From: Falsiroseomonas tokyonensis
GTDB taxonomy: Bacteria > Pseudomonadota > Alphaproteobacteria > Acetobacterales > Acetobacteraceae
Direction of reading: 5' to 3'
NCBI RefSeq assembly: GCF_019024325.1
Contig: NZ_JAFNJS010000004.1
Coordinates: forward strand, 186,001 to 250,000
DNA: 64,000 nt
The position numbers and the translations under genes were made by a program. The notes under the pieces were generated by a model. It saw nothing but the letters and a program-made list of their open reading frames with translations, was not told the origin of the DNA and searched no databases. Of the stretch, positions 32,700 to 63,628 are shown piece after piece; the first letter of the stretch is position 1, and each line of letters begins with the position of its first letter.

Positions 32700-33551
32700 A
32701 TGGATAGCGAACAGGCGGCCGCCGGCTTCACCGCCCTCGGCCAAGGCACCAGGCTGGAGCTGATGCGCGCGCTGCTGGCGGCCGGGCCTTCGGGCCTGCC
32801 GGCTGGCGAGATCGGCACGCGGCTCGGCGTGCCGGCCTCCACCCTGTCCTTCCACCTGCGGGCGCTGGAACAGGCGGGGCTGGTGGCGGCGACGCGGCAG
32901 GGCCGCAGCCTGGTCTATGCCGCGCAGGTCGCCCGGCTGCGCGGGCTGGTCGCCTTCCTGGCGGAGGCCTGCTGCGGCGGGCAGCCGGCGCTCTGCGGCG
33001 ACCTGCACCGATTGTTCGAGACGGAGACCCCTTCGATGGACGCGCCACGTTTCAACGTGCTGTTCCTCTGCACGCGCAATTCCGCCCGCTCGATCATGGC
33101 GGAGGCGATCCTGAACCGGATCGGGGAGGGCCGCTTCCGCGCCTTCTCCGCCGGCTCCGAGCCTTCGCCGGAAGGTCCGCTGCCGGAGGTGCTGAGCCAG
33201 CTCAAGGCGCTCGGCCATGATGTCTCCGCGCTGCGGTCGAAGTCCTGGGACGACTTCACCGGGCCGGGCGCGCCGCGCATGGATTTCGTCATCGCGCTGT
33301 GCGACACGCTGGCCGGCCAAGCCTGCCCGGATTTCGGCGACACGGCGCTGACCGCCGCCTGGCCGCTGCCGGATCCGGCGAAATTCGCCGGCAGCGCGGC
33401 GGAACGCGCGACGCTGCTGAACGAGCTTTATGCCGCCCTGCAACGCCGCCTCGGCATCTTCACCAGCCTGCGCTTCACCACGCTGAGCCGCATGGCGCTG
33501 CAGGCGCGGCTGGATGAGCTGGCGACCTCACAGGGCTTTGCGCGCGCATGA
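32700..33551 (+). CDS. arsRC: Fused ArsR repressor and thioredoxin-type ArsC arsenate reductase
   Basis: A 283-residue fusion. Residues 1-105 form an ArsR winged helix ([20 protein letters not shown]). The Cys cluster C91-C92-x6-C99 at the end of this domain resembles the As(III) site of the Acidithiobacillus ArsR. Residues 117-283 form a low-molecular-weight phosphatase-like arsenate reductase: P-loop LCTRNSARS (C124, R130), DP loop in WPLPDPAKF, and a second Cys pair in [11 protein letters not shown]. It would repress the operon until arsenite binds and reduce arsenate. Its stop overlaps the GAPDH start (ATGA). Confidence 0.9.
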
Positions 33552-34591
33552 GGGTCGGCATCAGCGGCATGGGCCGCATCGGGCGGCTGGCGCTGCGCGC
33601 AGCCTTCGGGGCGGCGGACCGCCAGGCGGAGGATCCGCGCGCCGGCAACCGGCTGGACGTGGTGCATCTGAACGAGATCAAGGGCGGCACCGCCGCCTGC
33701 GCGCATCTGCTGGAATTCGACACGGTGCAGGGCCGCTGGCGCGGCGGCATCGCGGCGGAGGGCGATGGCGCGATCCGTATCGGCGACCGGCGCCTGGGCT
33801 TTTCCGAACATGCAAGGCCTGGTGAGATCCCGTGGGGCGATCTCGGCGTGGATGTGGTGCTGGAATGCACCGGCAAATTCCTGACGCCGGAGGTGCTGCA
33901 GGGCCATCTGGCGCGCGGCGCGAAGCGGGTGATCGTCGCCGCGCCGGTGAAGTTCGACAGCGTGCTGAACGTGGTGGTCGGCGTGAACGAGCATCTCTAC
34001 GATCCGGCACGCCACCCGATCGTCACCGCGGCCTCCTGCACCACCAATTGCCTCGCCCCGGTGGTGAAGGTGGTGCATGAGGCGATCGGCATCCGGCACG
34101 GCCAGATCACCACCATCCACGACCCGACCAACACCAATGTCGTGGTCGATGCGCCGCACAAGGATCTGCGCCGCGCGCGGTCCGCCATGCTGTCGCTGCA
34201 GCCGACGACGACGGGCAGCGCCACCGCCATCGCGCTGATTTACCCTGAGCTGAAGGGCAAGCTGAACGGCCATGCGGTGCGCGCGCCGGTGCTGAATGCC
34301 TCCCTGACCGATTGCGTGTTCGAGATGCGGCGGGAGACGAGCGCGGAGGAGGTGAACGCGCTGTTCCGCGACGCCGCCGCCGGGCCGCTCGCCGGCATCC
34401 TGGGCTATGAGGCACGGCCGCTGGTCTCGGCCGATTATGCGCGGGATACGCGCAGCGCCGTCATCGATGCGCCGAGCACACTGGTGACGGATGGCACGCT
34501 GCTGAAGGTCTATGCCTGGTACGACAATGAGATGGGCTATGCCTGCCGCATGGTGGACCTGGCCTGCCACATGGCACGGGTGGGGCTGTGA
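33548..34591 (+). CDS. ArsJ-associated glyceraldehyde-3-phosphate dehydrogenase
   Basis: A 347-residue GAPDH. The NAD-binding start is [17 protein letters not shown], and the catalytic Cys is in [15 protein letters not shown]. Substrate residues appear in the [11 protein letters not shown] segment and the C-terminal [15 protein letters not shown]. In ars operons this enzyme uses arsenate in place of phosphate to form 1-arseno-3-phosphoglycerate, the substrate exported by ArsJ. Four-base overlaps on both sides (ATGA and GTGA) couple it to arsR-arsC and arsJ. A housekeeping GAPDH is expected elsewhere. Confidence 0.93.
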
Positions 34592-35823
34592 GCAGCGCGG
34601 TCGCCGGCAGCGGCTCGGGCACGCGCAACTACGCCATCGTCACCGCCGCCTATTGGGGCTTCACGCTGACCGATGGCGCGCTGCGGATGCTGGTGCTGCT
34701 GCATTTCTTCCGCCTGGGCTATTCGCCCTTCACGCTGGCCTTCCTGTTCCTGCTGTATGAGGCGGCGGGGATCGGCGCGAACCTGGCGGGCGGATGGCTG
34801 GCGGTGCGCTTCGGCATCGCGCGGATGCTGGCGGTGGGGCTGGCCACGCAGATCGCGGGCTTCCTGATGCTGTCGGCCCTGTCGCCGGATTGGGCGGCGG
34901 CGACCTCCGTCGCCTGGGTGGTGTTGGCGCAGGGTGTGTGTGGCGTCGCGAAGGACGTGACGAAGACGGCCAGCAAATCGGCCATCAAGATGACGGCGGG
35001 CGCGGCTTCCGGCCGGCTGTTCCGCTGGGTGGCGTTCTTCACCGGCAGCAAGAACGCGATGAAGGGCTTCGGCTTCTTCCTGGGCGGCGTGCTGCTGGAA
35101 GTGGCCGGCTTCCGCGGCGCGCTGTGGCTGATGGCGGCGGGGCTCGGGGTGGTGCTGGCCGCCGTGCTGCTGTCCCTGCCGCCGCTGATGGGGCGCGCCA
35201 AGCCCTCGCGCAATGCGCGGGAATTCCTCGGCAAGAGCCGCGGCGTGAACCTGCTGGCGGCGGCGCGGGTCTTCCTGTTCGGCGCGCGGGATGTGTGGTT
35301 CGTCGTCGGGCTGCCGGTGTTCCTCTATGCGGCGGGGTGGAGCTTCGCCATGGTCGGCGGCTTCCTGGCGCTGTGGACCATCGGCTACGGGCTGGTGCAG
35401 GCGGCAGCGCCCGGGCTGGTGCGGCGCAGCCCGGATGGGCTTTCGGCGGAGGTGCCGGCGGCGCGGCTGTGGTCCCTGCTACTGGCGCTGCTGCCCATCG
35501 GCCTGGCCGTCGCGCTGGCGGCCGATGTGCCGCGGCCGGACCTGGTGGTGGTGGCGGGGCTGGCGCTGTTCGGCTTCGTCTTCGCGGTGAATTCCTCGGT
35601 CCATTCCTACCTGGTGCTGGCCTATGCGGGGTCGGAGAAGGCGGCGGAGGATGTGGGCTTCTACTATGCCGCCAATGCCGCCGGGCGCTTCGGCGGCACG
35701 CTGCTGTCCGGCCTGCTCTATGGGCTGGGCGGAATCACGGCCTGCCTGGCCGGCTCGGCCCTGATGCTGCTGGCCTGCTGGGCGCTGACCACGGCGCTGC
35801 CGGTGGCGCGGGAGGCGCGCTGA
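34588..35823 (+). CDS. arsJ: ArsJ organoarsenical efflux transporter (MFS)
   Basis: A 411-residue major-facilitator permease with about 12 hydrophobic segments. The characteristic central stretch is [21 protein letters not shown], followed by [18 protein letters not shown]. ArsJ exports 1-arseno-3-phosphoglycerate, which then breaks down outside the cell. GTG start at 34588 overlaps the GAPDH stop. The stop codon at 35821 is also the exact left boundary of the MITE-like element. Confidence 0.93.
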
Positions 35824-35985
35824 GAGACCGTTTGAGAATGCTCCCGGCTGAGGGACCGCAGGCGATTTTTCGTCCCTGCAAGGGGGGCGGTGCGGTCGAT
35901 GCTGGTTGCATCGGCAAGCCGCCCAACGCGGCAGGGGCGGAAAAGCGCCGCGGAACCGACCCGTCCGGCATTCTCAAACGGTCTC
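35824..35985. mobile_element. MITE-like element, copy 1
   Basis: A 162-bp non-coding element with 18-bp perfect terminal inverted repeats GAGACCGTTTGAGAATGC. The interior is also imperfectly self-complementary (ATTTTTCGTCCCTGC near the left, GCAGGGGCGGAAAA near the right), so the whole element can fold into one long hairpin with a GATGC-TGGTT-GCATC stem-loop near its middle. TGA flanks it on both sides; the left one is the arsJ stop. A second copy is at 63364-63524. No transposase is encoded. Confidence 0.75.
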
Positions 35986-35995
35986 TGAGGCCGCC

Positions 35996-36814
35996 CTACC
36001 CGCCCAGGCGCCGCAGGAAGGCGCCATGGACGAAGCCATCGGGCACCGCATCCCCCTGCAGGTCCACCAGGCGCCAATCCCCCTCCTCCCGCAGCACGCG
36101 CAGGCGCGATCCGGGGGCCAGCTTGCCGAGCACCGCGAAGCCCGTGCCCGGGCCGCCGCGCAGGTTCAGATTGTCCCGCGCAGAGACCTCGAACTGCCCA
36201 AGATCATTCTCCGCCAGCGTGCCGGACCCGGCGGCGCCGCCCAGGTGCTGGAAGCGCGCCAGCGGGAAGGCCGGGCCGGGATCCTGCTTGCGGCGGGGGG
36301 CGATATCGTCATGGCCCACCACCTCCTGGATACTGGGATAGGCGGCGCGGATCGCTTCCGTCAGCGCCGCCACGGCCTTGAGCTGCGCTTCGGGATAGGC
36401 CTCCCAGCCCATGCTCGGGCCGCCATTCTTGTGCGCGGCGACCACCACCTCTCCCTCCGGCAGCGGCCGGGCCAGGCCGCTGCGGGTCCAGCCGCCAGCC
36501 TCGCGGCGGTCGAACCAGCCGAGATTGGCGATCTCGATGCCGATGGAACAGGTGTTCAGCCCGTCATGCCCCCTCCAATAGGAGGGGCCGGCGTGATAGG
36601 CGAGCCGGTCGCAGGGGACCGTCTGGATCACCGCGCCATCCCGATCGACGAAGAAATGCGCCGAAAGGCCGCGGTCGCGGATCGCGCGCACCGAATTCAG
36701 CGCAGAGCCGCCGGCGGTATAGTGCATGACCAGGAAGCGCGGGGTGATCGGGCCGCCACAATGCGGCGTCGCGTCGAAGGGCGCCTCCGCCAGGCGATGA
36801 TTCTCGATACGCAT
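35996..36814 (-). CDS. N-acetylmuramoyl-L-alanine amidase with SH3-like domain
   Basis: A 272-residue Amidase_2 (T7-lysozyme/AmpD-like) enzyme. Zinc ligands are His in LVMHYTAGGS and His/Asp in EVVGHDDIAPRRKQDPGPAF; AYHAGPSYWRGHDGLNTCSIGIE is the substrate wall. Residues about 205-272 form a bacterial SH3 domain (VSARDNLNLRGGPGTGF). No signal peptide is visible, so an AmpD-like cytoplasmic muropeptide role is possible, although the SH3 domain suggests wall binding. The stop lies ten bases from the MITE end. Confidence 0.9.
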   Translation of the reverse strand: MRIENHRLAEAPFDATPHCGGPITPRFLVMHYTAGGSALNSVRAIRDRGLSAHFFVDRDGAVIQTVPCDRLAYHAGPSYWRGHDGLNTCSIGIEIANLGWFDRREAGGWTRSGLARPLPEGEVVVAAHKNGGPSMGWEAYPEAQLKAVAALTEAIRAAYPSIQEVVGHDDIAPRRKQDPGPAFPLARFQHLGGAAGSGTLAENDLGQFEVSARDNLNLRGGPGTGFAVLGKLAPGSRLRVLREEGDWRLVDLQGDAVPDGFVHGAFLRRLGG

Positions 36815-36963: not shown

Positions 36964-37422
36964 TCAGGCCTTCTTCTCCCAGCCCCGCGCGCCCTGCTGC
37001 CAATAGGTCAGGGCATGGCCGGCGGCCTTCGCCGCCTTCCAGCGGCCGCGCGCAGCCGCCACCGCCTCCGCATCCCCGCCATCGAACAGGTCCAGCACGC
37101 GGTCGAAGGCCTCGAGATGCGCGCCCGCGGTATTCTCCAGCAGGAACAGGAAGCGCGCGCCATTCGGCGCCCCCTCCGGCCCCGTATCCTCGGTCGTCAG
37201 CCAGATCGGCTGCAATTGCGGATGCCCCGTGCGCGGCGAGCCATGCGGCAGCCAGTCCGGGTCCTGGCAGGTCCAGAGCGCGGCATCCAGCGCCTCCAGC
37301 CGCGCCGGCTCCGCCAGCCGCACCATGGCGCGGCCACCACCCGACAGCACCCGGCCGAGCAGCTTGGGCAGCGCCTGTTCCAGCGGCGTGCGGGTCAGGT
37401 GGTAGAAGCCGTAATCGGCCAT
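36964..37422 (-). CDS. holC: DNA polymerase III chi subunit
   Basis: A 152-residue clamp-loader accessory protein that links polymerase III to single-stranded DNA-binding protein. MADYGFYHLTRTPLEQALPKLL is the family N-terminus, and ALWTCQDPDWLPHG and LENTAGAHLEAFDRVLDLFDG are conserved blocks. The start overlaps the stop of the PepA paralogue by one base (TGATG), which couples them. pepA-holC adjacency is common in proteobacteria. Confidence 0.9.
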   Translation of the reverse strand: MADYGFYHLTRTPLEQALPKLLGRVLSGGGRAMVRLAEPARLEALDAALWTCQDPDWLPHGSPRTGHPQLQPIWLTTEDTGPEGAPNGARFLFLLENTAGAHLEAFDRVLDLFDGGDAEAVAAARGRWKAAKAAGHALTYWQQGARGWEKKA

Positions 37423-38741
37423 CAGGGGCGCCCTCCCGGCGGCTCGGGCGGCTCCTCATACTGCGCCGCCACCAGGCGATCCAGCAGCCGCGCGCCGAAG
37501 CCGGTGGCACCCGCCGGGCCCAGCGCATGCGGCTTCGCCTGCGTCTCCACCCCCGCGATATCCAGATGCGCCCAAGGCGCTTCGCCCACAAAAGATTCCA
37601 GAAACGCCGCCGCATGGCTCGCATCCGGCTGCCGCCCGGTGCCGGCCGGCATGCATTGCCGGAGATCGGCGATGTCGGAGCGCAGGTCCGCCCGGTGCCC
37701 CTCCCCGATCGGCATCGGCCACAAACGCTCCCCCACCTCCTCCCCCGCCGCGGCCAGGGCCGAGAGCAGCGCCGCATCGCGCCCGAACAACCCCGCCCGG
37801 TGATGCCCCAGCGCCGTGACGATGGCGCCCGTCAGCGTCGCCAGGTCCACCACCGCCCGCGGCCGATACCGCGTCACCGCATGATGCAACGCATCGGCCA
37901 GCACCAGCCGCCCCTCCGCATCCGTATCCACCACCTCCACCGTCCGGCCCGAGGCCATGCGCAACACATCGCCTGGACGATAGGAGCCCGCGCCCGTCGC
38001 ATTCTCCGCGATCGCCAGCACCGCCACCGCCGGCGCCGGGGAATGCCGCAAGGCCAAGGCCAGCATCGCACCCGCACAGGCCGCGGCGCCGGCCATGTCC
38101 GCGCGCATCGCCTCCATCCCCCTGGCCGGCTTGATGGAAATGCCGCCCGTATCGAACACCAGCCCCTTGCCCACGAAAACCACCGGCGGCGCATCGAAAC
38201 TGCCGCGCCAGCGCAGCACGGCCAGCCGCGGCGGATGCTCCGACCCACCCCCCACCGCCAGCAAGCCGCCAAACCCCGCCCGCGCCAGCCGCTTGCGGCC
38301 CCAGACATCCACATGAATCCCGAACTCGGCCAGCCCCTCCAGCCGCTTCGCGAAAGCCCGCGTCGTCAAATGATTGGCCGGCTCCGCCACCAGGTCTCGC
38401 GCGAAAAGACACCCCCGCACCGCCGGCAAGGCCGCCTCCCAGGCCAGACGACAGGCCGCCGGGTCATCGACCACCAGCGTCACCCGCTCCAGCCCCGCCT
38501 CCCCACCAGCCGCCCGAAACCCGGCAAACCGCCAGGCCCGCAACACCATCCCCGCCGCAAAGGCCGCAACATCCCGCGGAGCCACCCCCTCCGCCCCCAC
38601 CACCGCCGCAACAACCGACTCCAACCGCCCCACCAGCGCCGCCCCCGCCTCCTCCCAGGCCAGCCGCCCCCCCCCAGGCGGCGCCACCACAGGCTGCACA
38701 CCTGGATCGACGGGTGGGCGCTTGAAACGGAGCTTCAGCAT
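37422..38741 (-). CDS. Leucyl aminopeptidase-family protein (short PepA paralogue)
   Basis: A 439-residue M17 peptidase. All metal and catalytic residues expected from PepA are kept: FVGKGLVFDTGGISIKP, MRADMAGAAA and VDTDAEGRLVLADAL. The N-terminal domain is shorter than in the neighbouring 501-residue PepA. The ATG at 38741 is chosen because the longer frame runs into the hairpin array. The first 500 bases are unusually C-rich on the plus strand. Transcribed leftward with holC. It may differ in peptide specificity from its neighbour. Confidence 0.88.
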   Translation of the reverse strand: MLKLRFKRPPVDPGVQPVVAPPGGGRLAWEEAGAALVGRLESVVAAVVGAEGVAPRDVAAFAAGMVLRAWRFAGFRAAGGEAGLERVTLVVDDPAACRLAWEAALPAVRGCLFARDLVAEPANHLTTRAFAKRLEGLAEFGIHVDVWGRKRLARAGFGGLLAVGGGSEHPPRLAVLRWRGSFDAPPVVFVGKGLVFDTGGISIKPARGMEAMRADMAGAAACAGAMLALALRHSPAPAVAVLAIAENATGAGSYRPGDVLRMASGRTVEVVDTDAEGRLVLADALHHAVTRYRPRAVVDLATLTGAIVTALGHHRAGLFGRDAALLSALAAAGEEVGERLWPMPIGEGHRADLRSDIADLRQCMPAGTGRQPDASHAAAFLESFVGEAPWAHLDIAGVETQAKPHALGPAGATGFGARLLDRLVAAQYEEPPEPPGGRP

Positions 38742-38760
38742 GAGGGTCGCGCGCGTGATT

Positions 38761-38970
38761 GCAGGGGGACGCTGTCCCCCTGCACCCCCTGCCAAAGGGA
38801 CAGTGGTCCCTTTGGAAACCCGTTAAGGGGTGGGAAGGAGGAGGGGCATGGCGGGCGCGCGGACGAAGCGGGCGTGCAGGCCCCTCCTCCTTCCCACCCC
38901 TCATCCATGGGTTCGAAGGGGCCACTGCCCCTTCGCGGGAGGGGTGCGGGGAGGGCAGCGCCCTCCCCGC
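38761..38970. repeat. Array of five hairpins between two PepA-type genes
   Basis: Five perfect inverted repeats in 210 bases: 38761-38769/38775-38783 (9 bp), 38792-38801/38806-38815 (10 bp), 38827-38847/38880-38900 (21 bp, 32-base loop), 38914-38922/38927-38935 (9 bp) and 38946-38956/38960-38970 (11 bp). The long central stem is flanked symmetrically by two short hairpins on each side. The array fills almost the whole 254-base gap between the leftward pepA and its paralogue. Function unknown. Confidence 0.8.
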
Positions 38971-38995: not shown

Positions 38996-40501
38996 TCAGG
39001 CCTCGTCCCAATCCGCCACCAGCCGGTCGAGGAGTCGCACGCCGTAGGCGGTGGCGCCTTTGGGGGTGGTGGGGTGGTCTTTGTTGGTCCAGGCGGTGCC
39101 GGCGATGTCCAGGTGGGCCCAGGGCATGGGGCCGTTCTTGGTGTTGATGAAGCGTTGGATGAATTGTGCGGCGGTGACGGCGCCGGCGGGGCGGCCGCCG
39201 ACGTTCTTCATGTCGGCGATGTCGGAGCGGATGGCTTTGTCGTAGGCCTCGCCGAGGGGCATGCGCCAGGCGCCTTCGCCGGTGAGGTTCGCGGCGGCGA
39301 GGATGCGTTGCGCCAGGGCGTCGTCGTTGGAGAAGAGGCCGGCGTGTTCGTGGCCGAGTGCGACGATGATGGCGCCGGTGAGGGTCGCCAGGTCGATCAT
39401 GCAGCGGGGTTCGAAACGTTCCTGGCAGTACCAGAGCACGTCGGCGAGGACGAGGCGGCCTTCGGCGTCGGTGTTGATCACTTCGATGGTCTGGCCGGAG
39501 TAGGATTTCACCACGTCGCCCGGGCGTTGGGCGGTGCCGGAGGGCATGTTCTCGACCAGGCCGATGAGGCCCACGGCGTCCACCTTGGCCTTGCGGCCGG
39601 CGAGGGCTGCCATGAGGCCGACGACGGTGCCGGCGCCGGCCATGTCCCACTTCATGTCTTCCATGCCGCCGGCGGGCTTGATGGAGATGCCGCCGGTGTC
39701 GAAGGTGACGCCCTTGCCAATGAAGGCGAGCGGCTTGCTGGCCTTTTTCGCTTTCGGCGCGCCCTTCCATTGCATGACGACCAGGCGCGGTTCCACGGCG
39801 CTGCCCTGGGCCACGCCGAGCAGGGCGCCGAAGCCCAGGCGCTTCATTTCCTTGGGGCCAAGGATTTCCACTTCGACGCCAAGCTTTTCGAGGGATTTGC
39901 AGCGGTCGGCGAATTCGACCGGGTGCAGGATGTTGGGCGGTTCGCTGACCAGTTCGCGGGTGAGGAAGACGCCGTCGGCCACCGCGCGCATGGGCGAGAA
40001 GGCCTGCTTGGCGGCGGTGGTGTCGCTGGTGGCGAAGGCGAGGCGTTCGAGCTTCGGCTTGTCCTCCTCCTTCTCCTTCGTGCGGTAGCGGTCGAAGCGC
40101 CAGGATCGCAGCAGCGCGCCCATGGCCAGCGAAGCGGCCAGGCTGGGCGAGAGGGTATCGGCGGCGATGGTGGCTTCGCGGTCCTGCGCCAAGGCGGGGA
40201 TCATGCTGCCGCCGGCGGCCTCGGCCGCGAGCGGGGTGAGGTCGCCGGGCTTGCCGAGGCCGATGGCGAGCACCTTGGTGAGGCTGCCGCCGGGCGCCCC
40301 CAGGGGAAGAAAGAGGGTGGTGGACTGGCCCTTGCGGCCCTTGAAGCCGGCGGCCTCCAGCGCGCGGGACAGGGCGCCGCCGGTCGCGGCATCGGCCTCG
40401 GCGGCCAGGCCGGACCAGGGAGGGCCCTCGGCTTCGGGAAGCGGCAGCACCAGGGTGCCGGAGCGCGGCAGGGTGGGCTTCGCGAAGGCGATATCGGGCA
40501 T
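38996..40501 (-). CDS. pepA: Leucyl aminopeptidase PepA
   Basis: A 501-residue M17 cytosolic aminopeptidase of full length. The N-terminal regulatory/DNA-binding-like domain runs to about 175. The catalytic domain carries LAFIGKGVTFDTGGISIKP, MEDMKWDMAGAG, VINTDAEGRLVLADVL and the ATLTGAIIVALG segment. Metal-dependent hexamer in family members. It lies upstream of the shorter paralogue on the same strand, separated by the hairpin array, and is divergent from cysQ. Confidence 0.95.
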   Translation of the reverse strand: MPDIAFAKPTLPRSGTLVLPLPEAEGPPWSGLAAEADAATGGALSRALEAAGFKGRKGQSTTLFLPLGAPGGSLTKVLAIGLGKPGDLTPLAAEAAGGSMIPALAQDREATIAADTLSPSLAASLAMGALLRSWRFDRYRTKEKEEDKPKLERLAFATSDTTAAKQAFSPMRAVADGVFLTRELVSEPPNILHPVEFADRCKSLEKLGVEVEILGPKEMKRLGFGALLGVAQGSAVEPRLVVMQWKGAPKAKKASKPLAFIGKGVTFDTGGISIKPAGGMEDMKWDMAGAGTVVGLMAALAGRKAKVDAVGLIGLVENMPSGTAQRPGDVVKSYSGQTIEVINTDAEGRLVLADVLWYCQERFEPRCMIDLATLTGAIIVALGHEHAGLFSNDDALAQRILAAANLTGEGAWRMPLGEAYDKAIRSDIADMKNVGGRPAGAVTAAQFIQRFINTKNGPMPWAHLDIAGTAWTNKDHPTTPKGATAYGVRLLDRLVADWDEA

Positions 40502-61214: not shown

Positions 61215-62036
61215 TCAGGTGCCGTCGCGGCTCAGCACGATGTCGCAGTGCTCGAGGCCCGGCATCTGCGCCGCAGGAATCGGGGTCAGCGCGCCGTCGC
61301 GCTCGATGCGATGGCAGCGGAAGCCCAGCCCTTCGACCCAATTGGCGAGTTCCGCCACGTCGCCGCGCGCGGCCAGCATCACCGGCGACCATTCCATCAC
61401 CACCACCAGGCGGGGGGACCGCGCGATCAGCTGCTGGGCGCCCAGCAGCACCAGCCCCTCCGTCCCCTCCGCATCCATGCGCAGCAGATCCAGCGAGGGC
61501 AGCTCGGCCAGGGCATCGTCCAGCCGGACGGCGGGGACGGCGAAGCCCTCGGTGTAGTTGGCCGCGGCCACGGCGATGGCCAGGTGGGCGCTGCCGGTCT
61601 GCTCGGGATCGGCAGCGAAGCGCACCTCCCCGGGCTCGTGCAGCACCGCCATCTCCCGCAGCGTCACCCGGCTGTGCAGGTGGTTGGCGGCGATGGTCCG
61701 GCGCAGCAGCGGCAGCACCTTGGGATAGGGTTCGAAGCTGTGGATATGGCCGCCGGCGCCCACCGCCTCCGCCATCACCAGCGTATGGAAGCCGAGGCTG
61801 GCGCCGACCTCCGCCACCTGCATCCCGGGCTTCAGGCGCTGGCGCAGCACCGTCTCCACATGCGGTTCCCACTGGCCGCGCAGGATGATCTCCGGTGTCA
61901 TCCCCGCATCATCGCCCGGCAGGTAGATCTTGCGGCCGAAGTGGGTCAGGGCCAAACCCATCCCATTGCCGAGATAGTACCACTCGCGCGGCTGCCGCAG
62001 ACTGCGGCGCAGCAAGGAATTCAGCTTGTCGAGCAT
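61215..62036 (-). CDS. FkbM-family methyltransferase
   Basis: A 273-residue AdoMet enzyme. VAEVGASLGFHTLVMAEAV is the AdoMet site, HIHSFEPYPKVLPLL the second motif, and LLRMDAEGTEGLVLLGA the FkbM hallmark. Such enzymes O-methylate sugars of surface polysaccharide or natural products; no glycan cluster is present here. The ATG at 62036 is chosen because the longer frame enters the divergent gene. Divergent from the RNA methyltransferase by 46 bases. Confidence 0.85.
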   Translation of the reverse strand: MLDKLNSLLRRSLRQPREWYYLGNGMGLALTHFGRKIYLPGDDAGMTPEIILRGQWEPHVETVLRQRLKPGMQVAEVGASLGFHTLVMAEAVGAGGHIHSFEPYPKVLPLLRRTIAANHLHSRVTLREMAVLHEPGEVRFAADPEQTGSAHLAIAVAAANYTEGFAVPAVRLDDALAELPSLDLLRMDAEGTEGLVLLGAQQLIARSPRLVVVMEWSPVMLAARGDVAELANWVEGLGFRCHRIERDGALTPIPAAQMPGLEHCDIVLSRDGT

Positions 62037-62082
62037 GGAGCCCCGTCCTGGTTTGGCCCCCCATCGCACCCAGCCGGGCGCG

Positions 62083-63363
62083 ATGCAACCGGAGGCGGAG
62101 GTCACGATTGCCCGCCTGGGCTCGGCCGGCGACGGCGTGGCGGAAACGCCGGAGGGCCCGGTCTTCCTCGCCGGCACCCTGCCGGGGGAGCGGGTGCTGG
62201 CCCGGATGGCCGGGCGACGCGGCGAGGGGCAGGCGGCGGAACCGCTTGAGATCCGGGCGGCGAGCCCCGACCGGGTGGCGCCGCCCTGCCCGCATTTCCT
62301 GGTGGAATGCGGCGCCTGCGCCCTGCAGCACTGGGCGATGCCCGCCTATGCGGCCTGGAAGCGCGCCCGGCTGGTGGATGCGCTGGAGCGCGCGGGCCAG
62401 CCGGCGACCCCGGTGGCGGAGATGGTGATCGCGGCACCCAATACCCGGCGCCGCGCCGACCTGGCGCTGAAGCGGCTGCAGGGCGGCGCCATGGCGCTCG
62501 GCTTCCACCAGCGCGGCAGCGCGGCGGTGGCGGACCTGGCCACCTGCCATGTGCTGGACCCGGTGCTGGTGGCGCTGTTCCGGCCGCTGCGCGAATTGCT
62601 GCGGCGGATGCCGGCGCTGAAGCGGGAAGGCTCGGCGGTGCTGAACCTGCTGGATTCGGGGCCGGACCTGCTGCTGCGCACGGATGGGCCGCTGGATGCC
62701 CCGCAGCGCGCCATGCTGGCCGCCTTCGGCACCGCGCATGGCATTCCCCGCATCGCCTGGGCGCTGAAGGACGGGCCGGTGGAGAATGCGGCGCAGGCCG
62801 GGCCGGTGCGGCTGGATCTCTCGGGGGTTTCGGTGGCGCCGCCGCCGGGCGCCTTCCTGCAGGCGGCGCCGGAGGGTGAGGCCGCCATCATCGCCGCCGT
62901 CCTGGCCGGGCTGTCCGCCCAGAAACTGCCGGTGCGGGCGCGGATCGCGGATCTCTATGCCGGGATCGGCACGCTGTCCTTCCCGCTTTCCGCCCGCGGC
63001 CGCGTCGCGGCCTATGAGGGCGATGCGGCGGCCGTCGCTGCGCTGGATGCCGGGGCGCGCAAGGCCGGCGGCCGGGTGGAGGCGATCCGCCGCGACCTGG
63101 CCTATCGCCCCCTGCTGCCGGCAGAGCTGAACGCTTTCGGCGCCGTGGTGCTGGACCCGCCCTATGCCGGCGCGGCGGAGCAGGTGGCGCAGATCACCCG
63201 CAGCAAGGTGCCGGTGGTGATCTATGTCTCCTGCAACCCGGTGGCGCTGGCCCGCGACGCGGCGGCGCTGGTGAAAGCGGGGTTCAAGGCGGTCTCGGCC
63301 GTGCCGGTGGACCAGTTCCGCTGGTCGCCGCACCTGGAATCGGTGGTCAGCTTCCGGCGCTGA
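62083..63363 (+). CDS. TrmA/RlmD-family RNA (uracil-5) methyltransferase
   Basis: A 426-residue AdoMet-dependent 23S rRNA or tRNA methyltransferase. A TRAM-like N-domain precedes the Fe-S cysteine set PCPHFLVECGACALQH. AdoMet motif IADLYAGIGTLSFPL; catalytic block VVLDPPYAGAAEQ and VIYVSCNPVALARD with the nucleophilic Cys. The ATG at 62083 is favoured; ATGs at 62026 and 62038 overlap the divergent gene. Target base unknown (RlmD or RlmC type). The stop codon at 63361 is the left boundary of MITE-like copy 2. Confidence 0.9.
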   Translation: MQPEAEVTIARLGSAGDGVAETPEGPVFLAGTLPGERVLARMAGRRGEGQAAEPLEIRAASPDRVAPPCPHFLVECGACALQHWAMPAYAAWKRARLVDALERAGQPATPVAEMVIAAPNTRRRADLALKRLQGGAMALGFHQRGSAAVADLATCHVLDPVLVALFRPLRELLRRMPALKREGSAVLNLLDSGPDLLLRTDGPLDAPQRAMLAAFGTAHGIPRIAWALKDGPVENAAQAGPVRLDLSGVSVAPPPGAFLQAAPEGEAAIIAAVLAGLSAQKLPVRARIADLYAGIGTLSFPLSARGRVAAYEGDAAAVAALDAGARKAGGRVEAIRRDLAYRPLLPAELNAFGAVVLDPPYAGAAEQVAQITRSKVPVVIYVSCNPVALARDAAALVKAGFKAVSAVPVDQFRWSPHLESVVSFRR

Positions 63364-63524
63364 GAGGCCGTTTGAGAATTCCGGCGGCTGAGGGTTCGCA
63401 GGGGATTTTTCGTCCTGGGAGGGCGCTGGGCGCAGCCGATACTGGTTGCATCTGCAAGACCTGCAACGCAGCCAGGGCGGAAAAGCCCCGCGAAACCCAC
63501 CGACCGGTGTTCTCAAACGGCCTC
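63364..63524. mobile_element. MITE-like element, copy 2
   Basis: 161 bp with perfect 15-bp terminal inverted repeats GAGGCCGTTTGAGAA. Compared with copy 1 (GAGACC...GGTCTC) both ends have changed together (GAGGCC...GGCCTC), keeping the pairing. Conserved interior blocks include GGCTGAGGG, GATTTTTCGTCC, CTGGTTGCATC and AGGGCGGAAAAG. TGA precedes it (stop of the RNA methyltransferase) and TGA follows it at 63525. No open reading frame of its own. Confidence 0.75.
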
Positions 63525-63628
63525 TGAGGCTCGACCGCGAAAGATCGTTGCGCGGAACCATGGCTGGGGGCTTGCATCCGACCCCCCGCATCCAACCTGA
63601 CCGCTGCAACGAAGCGGGAGAGGCTTCC

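Follow-up and report, generated by a model that had tools for sequence, protein, structure and literature searches.

Two copies of a hairpin element of approximately 160 bp lie in the window, a 64,000-nucleotide stretch of the Falsiroseomonas tokyonensis genome (contig NZ_JAFNJS010000004.1, positions 186,001 to 250,000). The element is probably a miniature inverted-repeat transposable element (MITE) that is moved in trans by IS5-type transposases, inserts at stop codons where it is tolerated, and combines a core selected as RNA with ends that have been exchanged. It appears to be a hairpin without genes that is moved by the transposase of another element and usually lands harmlessly on the stop codons of genes. 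Unusual in this MITE are core blocks that are better conserved than the ends and a paired, strand-biased covariation.

A sequence-only reading of the window had described both copies, their lengths and their perfect terminal inverted repeats, and had placed each one after the TGA stop of a gene (arsJ and a TrmA-type gene) with a second TGA behind it; the sequence confirmed these features (Table 1), the second gene being of the RlmD/TrmA type. The ends read GAGACC/GGTCTC in copy 1 and GAGGCC/GGCCTC in copy 2, and GTTTGAGAAT, with at most one mismatch, occurs four times in the window (0.56 expected; maximum of 3 in 100 shuffles). Positions 32700–35823 hold an arsenic operon comprising a fused ORF (ArsR-type HTH and ArsC-like phosphatase), an ArsJ-associated GAPDH, and ArsJ. 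Two minus-strand ORFs (37422–38795 and 38996–40501) adjoin each other, resemble paralogues, with NTDAEGRLVLAD / DTDAEGRLVLAD in both, and are presumably leucyl aminopeptidases.

Table 1. Element copies, their parts, target duplications and adjoining genes in the window.
Feature	Position	Strand	Remarks
Element copy 1	35824..35985	+	162 bp, core strand +
Copy 1 left terminal inverted repeat	35824..35841	+	18 bp, perfect
Copy 1 core	35843..35965	+	covariance model R1, 127.7 bits; other strand 32.1
Copy 1 right terminal inverted repeat	35968..35985	-	18 bp, perfect
Copy 1 target duplication, left TGA (ArsJ stop codon)	35821..35823	+	single TGA at empty site in G002 (L336)
Copy 1 target duplication, right TGA	35986..35988	+	read from sequence
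arsJ, host gene; stop codon is copy 1 target	34588..35823	+	NCBIfam NF033734 MFS_ArsJ, 517 bits, cut-off 400
Amidase_2 domain protein, convergent neighbour of copy 1	35996..36814	-	Pfam PF01510
Element copy 2	63364..63524	+	161 bp, core strand +
Copy 2 left terminal inverted repeat	63364..63378	+	15 bp, perfect
Copy 2 core	63383..63504	+	covariance model R1, 99.4 bits; other strand 22.7
Copy 2 right terminal inverted repeat	63510..63524	-	15 bp, perfect
Copy 2 target duplication, left TGA (methyltransferase ORF stop)	63361..63363	+	single TGA at empty sites in G001, G002 (L320, L321)
Copy 2 target duplication, right TGA	63525..63527	+	read from sequence
Uracil-C5 methyltransferase, RlmD/TrmA type, host of copy 2	62026..63363	+	445 aa; best NCBIfam match RlmD, below cut-off

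Mobility is indicated by genus-mates with empty sites of insertion. The methyltransferase gene that hosts copy 2 was located in 14 genus-mates, and in 11 of them the alignment reaches the stop codon and is element-free over 100 bases downstream. The sequence after the single TGA in one of them, G001 (GGCTCG..CGAAAGATCGTTGCGCGG), matches the window sequence past the second TGA. Two further loci (L327 and L328) are element-free in the bases shown, and in one genus-mate, G011 (L330), the stop of this gene is likewise occupied by an element of its own, with a TAA target and a different end. The latter is either an independent insertion or reflects loss elsewhere. At the site of copy 1, the amidase could be aligned at nine genus-mate loci, with ArsJ recognisably adjacent only in the close relative G002. 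Its ArsJ/amidase junction is an empty site with a single TGA, as is its methyltransferase site, so that the flank alignment proposed by the sequence-only reading found both window sites vacant in one genome.

The duplication of the target extends beyond the window copies. Identical 3-bp flanks border 39 of the 78 copies with consensus-fitting ends, to which the test was restricted, compared with a mean of 14.9 and a maximum of 25 in 2000 shuffles; the flanks of the other half are not identical. The same copies have T at position -3 (70 copies), A at -1 (66), C at -4 (46), and G at +4 (59). By sequence comparison, the insertion target is C-TNA-G, with TNA duplicated. These results bear out the proposal of a MITE with a 3-bp, frame-preserving target duplication. 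Features by which MITEs are defined are present (terminal inverted repeats of 15–18 bp, a total length of 161–162 bp, no transposase, and 27 copies). The genome also contains two derivatives that consist of arms only, 53 and 59 bp long (L020 and L022), with TNA flanks and no core. Their lack of a core suggests that it may be dispensable for movement.

The copies in the window have relatives in the same genome and beyond. A blastn search identified 13 near-full-length copies in the genome, and the covariance model of the core identified 27 places (28 matches, one being the reverse of another). Thus, the genome and its relatives, which the sequence-only reading had singled out for searching, yielded 25 further copies in the genome itself and related ones in other Acetobacteraceae and in Aureimonas. 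Empty sites and copies outside the two window contexts therefore both exist, the two points on which that reading had made mobility depend. Judged by record titles among the matches listed, the genera with the core are Falsiroseomonas, Plastoroseomonas, Roseomonas, Roseococcus, Rubritepida, Belnapia, Paracraurococcus, Neoroseomonas and Aureimonas. One of the searches behind this list returned at least 110 stretches, some of them chance matches in other phyla. When applied to 267,096 bases from 68 sources, the core model gave a top score of at most 18.5 bits apart from the window copies.

In a class-wide draw, the core model matched 31 of 385 genomes, strongly in the F. tokyonensis genome and in two others (G288 and G292). 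The best scores of the remaining matches (approximately 35–63 bits), which were judged by eye with loci close to contig ends displayed off-centre, mark them as distant kin at most. We take these weak matches (L355, L357, L359, L369, L376 and similar) to resemble the CIR repeats of Alphaproteobacteria, and a wider superfamily joining the element and CIR-like repeats is possible. Carriage on plasmids, phages or viral contigs was rejected within the searches made, as there were no matches to copy 1 in plasmids and phages, to one family-3 copy in plasmids, or to the core pattern in viral contigs. Several loci (L010, L012, L013, L153 and L154 with 185 bp, and L040 with 213 bp) are longer variants with extra sequence that flanks the upper stem on one or both sides and resembles an additional hairpin. 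Draft contigs of G011 stop at a copy or up to 7 bases past it (L121, L122 and L123), and copy numbers in draft assemblies may therefore be underestimates.

The absence of a transposase had led the sequence-only reading to propose mobilisation in trans. This is likely, given the near-identical ends of an IS5-family element in a genus-mate. A PF13586 profile search of the F. tokyonensis genome gave two matches. One transposase has a right end (GAGTCCGTTTGAGAAT) that shares 15 of 16 bases with the window copies, and its left end was not recognised. We identified in a genus-mate an intact 895-bp element (L090) with the ends GAGCCCGTTTGAGAAT and GTGACCGTTTGAGAAT, both 15/16 to the window copies, and with TCA and TAA as flanks, which agree at only two of three bases. 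Its transposase is 88% identical to the one in the F. tokyonensis genome and belongs to the IS5 family (NCBIfam NF033580, 240 bits, cut-off 110). Furthermore, the two ends of L090 are exactly equal (16/16) to an end of four and six, respectively, of the 173 elements. An element with matching ends was found intact in a genus-mate; the search of the F. tokyonensis genome itself recovered no intact IS with the ends of the window copies and only one with a single recognisable end. The sequence comparisons support well a MITE moved by IS5-type transposases, which would cut the element and move it in trans.

Relatives also carry IS5-type elements that have TNA flanks but different ends (L092, L093 and L094, flanks 3/3 alike; L308, 2/3). 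Six comparisons of the sequence past the ends (shuffle fractions of 0.09–0.92), in which two of the three IS ends were cut 2–4 bases off, detected nothing in common between the IS and the MITE. The idea that the MITE body arose from the matching IS simply by losing internal sequence was rejected on this basis. Solved structures searched with the L087 transposase gave no match at E 0.1.

One core is found behind three sets of ends in the F. tokyonensis genome: GAGRCCGTTTGAGAAT (family 1, 13 copies), GAGCCTGACCCRGAAG (family 2, six copies), and GGGCCTGTGGACAGTT (family 3, eight copies). Its copies seem to follow two target rules, TNA and a CTAG-like one. Within the mismatches searched, the genome contained no matching IS for families 2 and 3. 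It has three lone matches to family-2-like ends, two of which lacked a partner end within the 5.5 kb and 4.2 kb examined. We compared cores and ends in an alignment (A1) of window copy 1 and 67 of the 70 non-redundant elements, with L167, L240 and L056 omitted for poor ends and 11 ends moved manually by 1–4 bases. The mean majority over the 68 rows is 0.97 in GGATTTTTCG, 0.93 in the apical part and 0.90 around CGGAAAAG, values inflated by the 40 rows that came from a pattern search requiring two core blocks, and 0.73 and 0.70 in the end arms. In the remaining 28 rows, which were picked without the pattern, the same blocks score 0.93, 0.94 and 0.89, the end arms 0.77 and 0.76. The inner stem has two stretches that vary as much as the ends do (0.70 and 0.69 in all rows; 0.73 and 0.72 in the unselected rows). 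Cores average 71% identity in the 549 of 2278 pairs with ends less than 45% identical and 77% in the 194 pairs with ends more than 85% identical. The core may have persisted while ends were swapped to suit different IS5-type transposases.

The consensus of the alignment is a single end-to-end hairpin of 51 pairs, and the RNA fold of copy 1 is 10.4 SD better than that of its own shuffles, in agreement with the earlier proposal that the whole element can fold. The paired changes noticed between the ends of the two window copies proved to be a general trait of the element, with at least one double-sided change at all 18 end pairs and at 19 inner pairs. Counts on the alignment confirmed the covariation: paired cells make up 93.4% of the total versus 78.3% after shuffling, and double-changed cells number 496 versus 147 (at most 133 with slid partners), above all 500 shuffles, in counts that tally sequences rather than independent events.

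Imperfect palindromes can be corrected by template switching, in which one arm is copied onto the other. An ordinary MITE could thus acquire double-sided changes at all end pairs by arm-on-arm copying, while its ends diverged by drift and recombination and no RNA was selected. Arms-only derivatives exist and a MITE needs no function, both of which fit this account; nonetheless, we regard it as rather unlikely. Copying between arms is blind to strand and such a process predicts equal numbers of G.U and A.C mispairs, yet the 68 rows contain 242 G.U and 42 A.C cells, again tallied by sequence. G.U also prevails over A.C by columns (35 to 7) and by sequences (57 to 2), in the core (78:20) and ends (101:21) after removal of one fixed U.G column, and among the 28 rows free of pattern selection (98 to 15 by cells, 24 to 9 by columns). 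The steadiness of the middle blocks relative to the ends (0.93–0.94 versus 0.76), which holds in the unselected rows too, also speaks against an ordinary MITE.

The G.U bias does not depend on the orientation of the element to the neighbouring ORF (49:14 in sense and 39:5 in antisense copies, with one fixed column omitted), and it is therefore a property of the element. This independence would equally suit a selected molecule that is single-stranded DNA of one strand, such as a hairpin that a protein recognises in the course of transposition or replication, and the DNA fold of copy 1 is also strong (z -7.6). However, the two strands of copy 1 differ in energy by 19.8 kcal/mol as RNA and by 4.7 kcal/mol as DNA, and a U.G pair is preserved in 63 of the 68 rows (25 of the 28 unselected rows). 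Single-stranded DNA is thus less likely than folded RNA, and we consider it an improbable explanation. The covariation together with the orientation-independent G.U bias suggests selection of one strand as a folded RNA, which would be for the element's own sake and not that of the neighbouring gene. The sequence patterns make it likely that the core is a functional RNA. A known Rfam family was rejected, since no match reached the gathering score (Rfam 15: no matches in the window and four weak matches from seven loci).

The location of the copies at gene ends is consistent with the target rule. The TNA triplets (TGA, TAA, TCA and TTA) all spell a stop on one of the two strands; a duplicated TNA therefore retains the stop, and the reading frame closes at the same place. 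By an ORF test on third-position GC rather than a gene caller, 46 of the 58 copies whose TNA duplication is perfect have a coding-like stop at the junction (19 sense, 27 antisense); these 58 are a selected set because the score used to set the ends favoured target duplications. Such stops also occur in 80 of the 161 copies with good ends, drawn from 173 elements (39 sense, 43 antisense, two both). The F. tokyonensis genome has them at 21 of 27 copies (11/13, 5/6 and 5/8 by end family), with offsets of -1 to +3 from the junction allowed (18 of the 21 at 0). For CTNAG sites, the background counted without this tolerance is 55 of 258 in the flanks and 12 of 40 within the window; when every TNA is counted, it is 401 of 7489 and 70 of 1178, respectively. 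The target rule accounts for part of the excess, and purging of intragenic insertions may account for the rest. Insertions at stop codons, which leave the frame closing unchanged, would be tolerated and accumulate. Some family-3 copies lie at CTAG-like sites, where a TAG stop is formed with the element's initial G as its last base.

The sequence-only reading had offered a structured 3' RNA as its alternative to a mobile element, and the part of this idea that may stand is the structured RNA: the even orientation of the 161 copies makes a 3' regulatory role for the adjacent gene unlikely. A fixed, immobile 3' RNA that regulates the neighbouring genes or ends their transcription would explain the location at gene ends and the strong fold. 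Close relatives with empty sites contradict it, however, as do the target duplication, the even orientation and the lack of a terminator-like site in copy 1, and we reject it as highly improbable. Neither a promoter-like nor a terminator-like site was found in copy 1, and any effect on the host mRNA could be a side effect.

MITEs moved by IS5-family transposases typically have GAG-type ends, a 3-bp TNA duplication, a similar length and a body without genes. The element described here shares all of these features and has a matching IS5-family element in the genus. It differs from them in body blocks that are more conserved than the ends, in the combination of one core with several end sets, and in a body unrelated to the matching IS. 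A 3-nt target is described as common in the IS1031 group (PMC2516522). According to a review (PMC2229807), the 107-bp RUP of Streptococcus pneumoniae is a MITE that has likewise been proposed to depend on an IS of similar ends, IS630-Spn1, for its movement in trans. RUP, however, has a TA target and an IS630-family partner, and the review reports no further signature of structure or function for it (PMC2229807). The YPAL/RU-2 elements of Yersinia are also palindromic, approximately 168 bp long, not A+T-rich, found at filled and empty sites and strongly folded by prediction (PMC2229807 and PMC2267715). Unlike our element, they are reported by the review to have target duplications of 3–26 bp and to lack such ends (PMC2229807), and they come from a different bacterial class. 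The CIR repeats of Caulobacter and other Alphaproteobacteria (approximately 110 bp, two arms and a linker, conserved GANTC) are likewise alphaproteobacterial intergenic repeats with a conserved fold (PMC2229807). By that description, they differ from the element, which is a single end-to-end hairpin with GANTC in nine of 68 rows.

A literature search, which mostly excluded subscription papers, found none naming this element. We tentatively entertain a broader possibility: a mobile structured RNA module, with the folded core as the unit of selection, may exchange its terminal repeats for those of any IS5-type transposase it meets and so spread among Acetobacteraceae, Aureimonas and perhaps further Alphaproteobacteria; the CIR repeats might be remotely related to it. 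The usual hallmark of a MITE is a pair of constant ends enclosing a middle that can be dispensed with. By contrast, the middle blocks of this element are steadier than its ends and have the bias toward one strand that a functional RNA should show. The stop-codon rule, in which the duplicated TNA is itself a stop, offers a simple reason for the crowding of such elements at gene ends in GC-rich genomes. If our reading is true, a non-coding RNA can be the cargo for which a MITE is selected, and the swapping of ends would account for the survival of a parasite that lacks an enzyme of its own through the successive loss of transposases.
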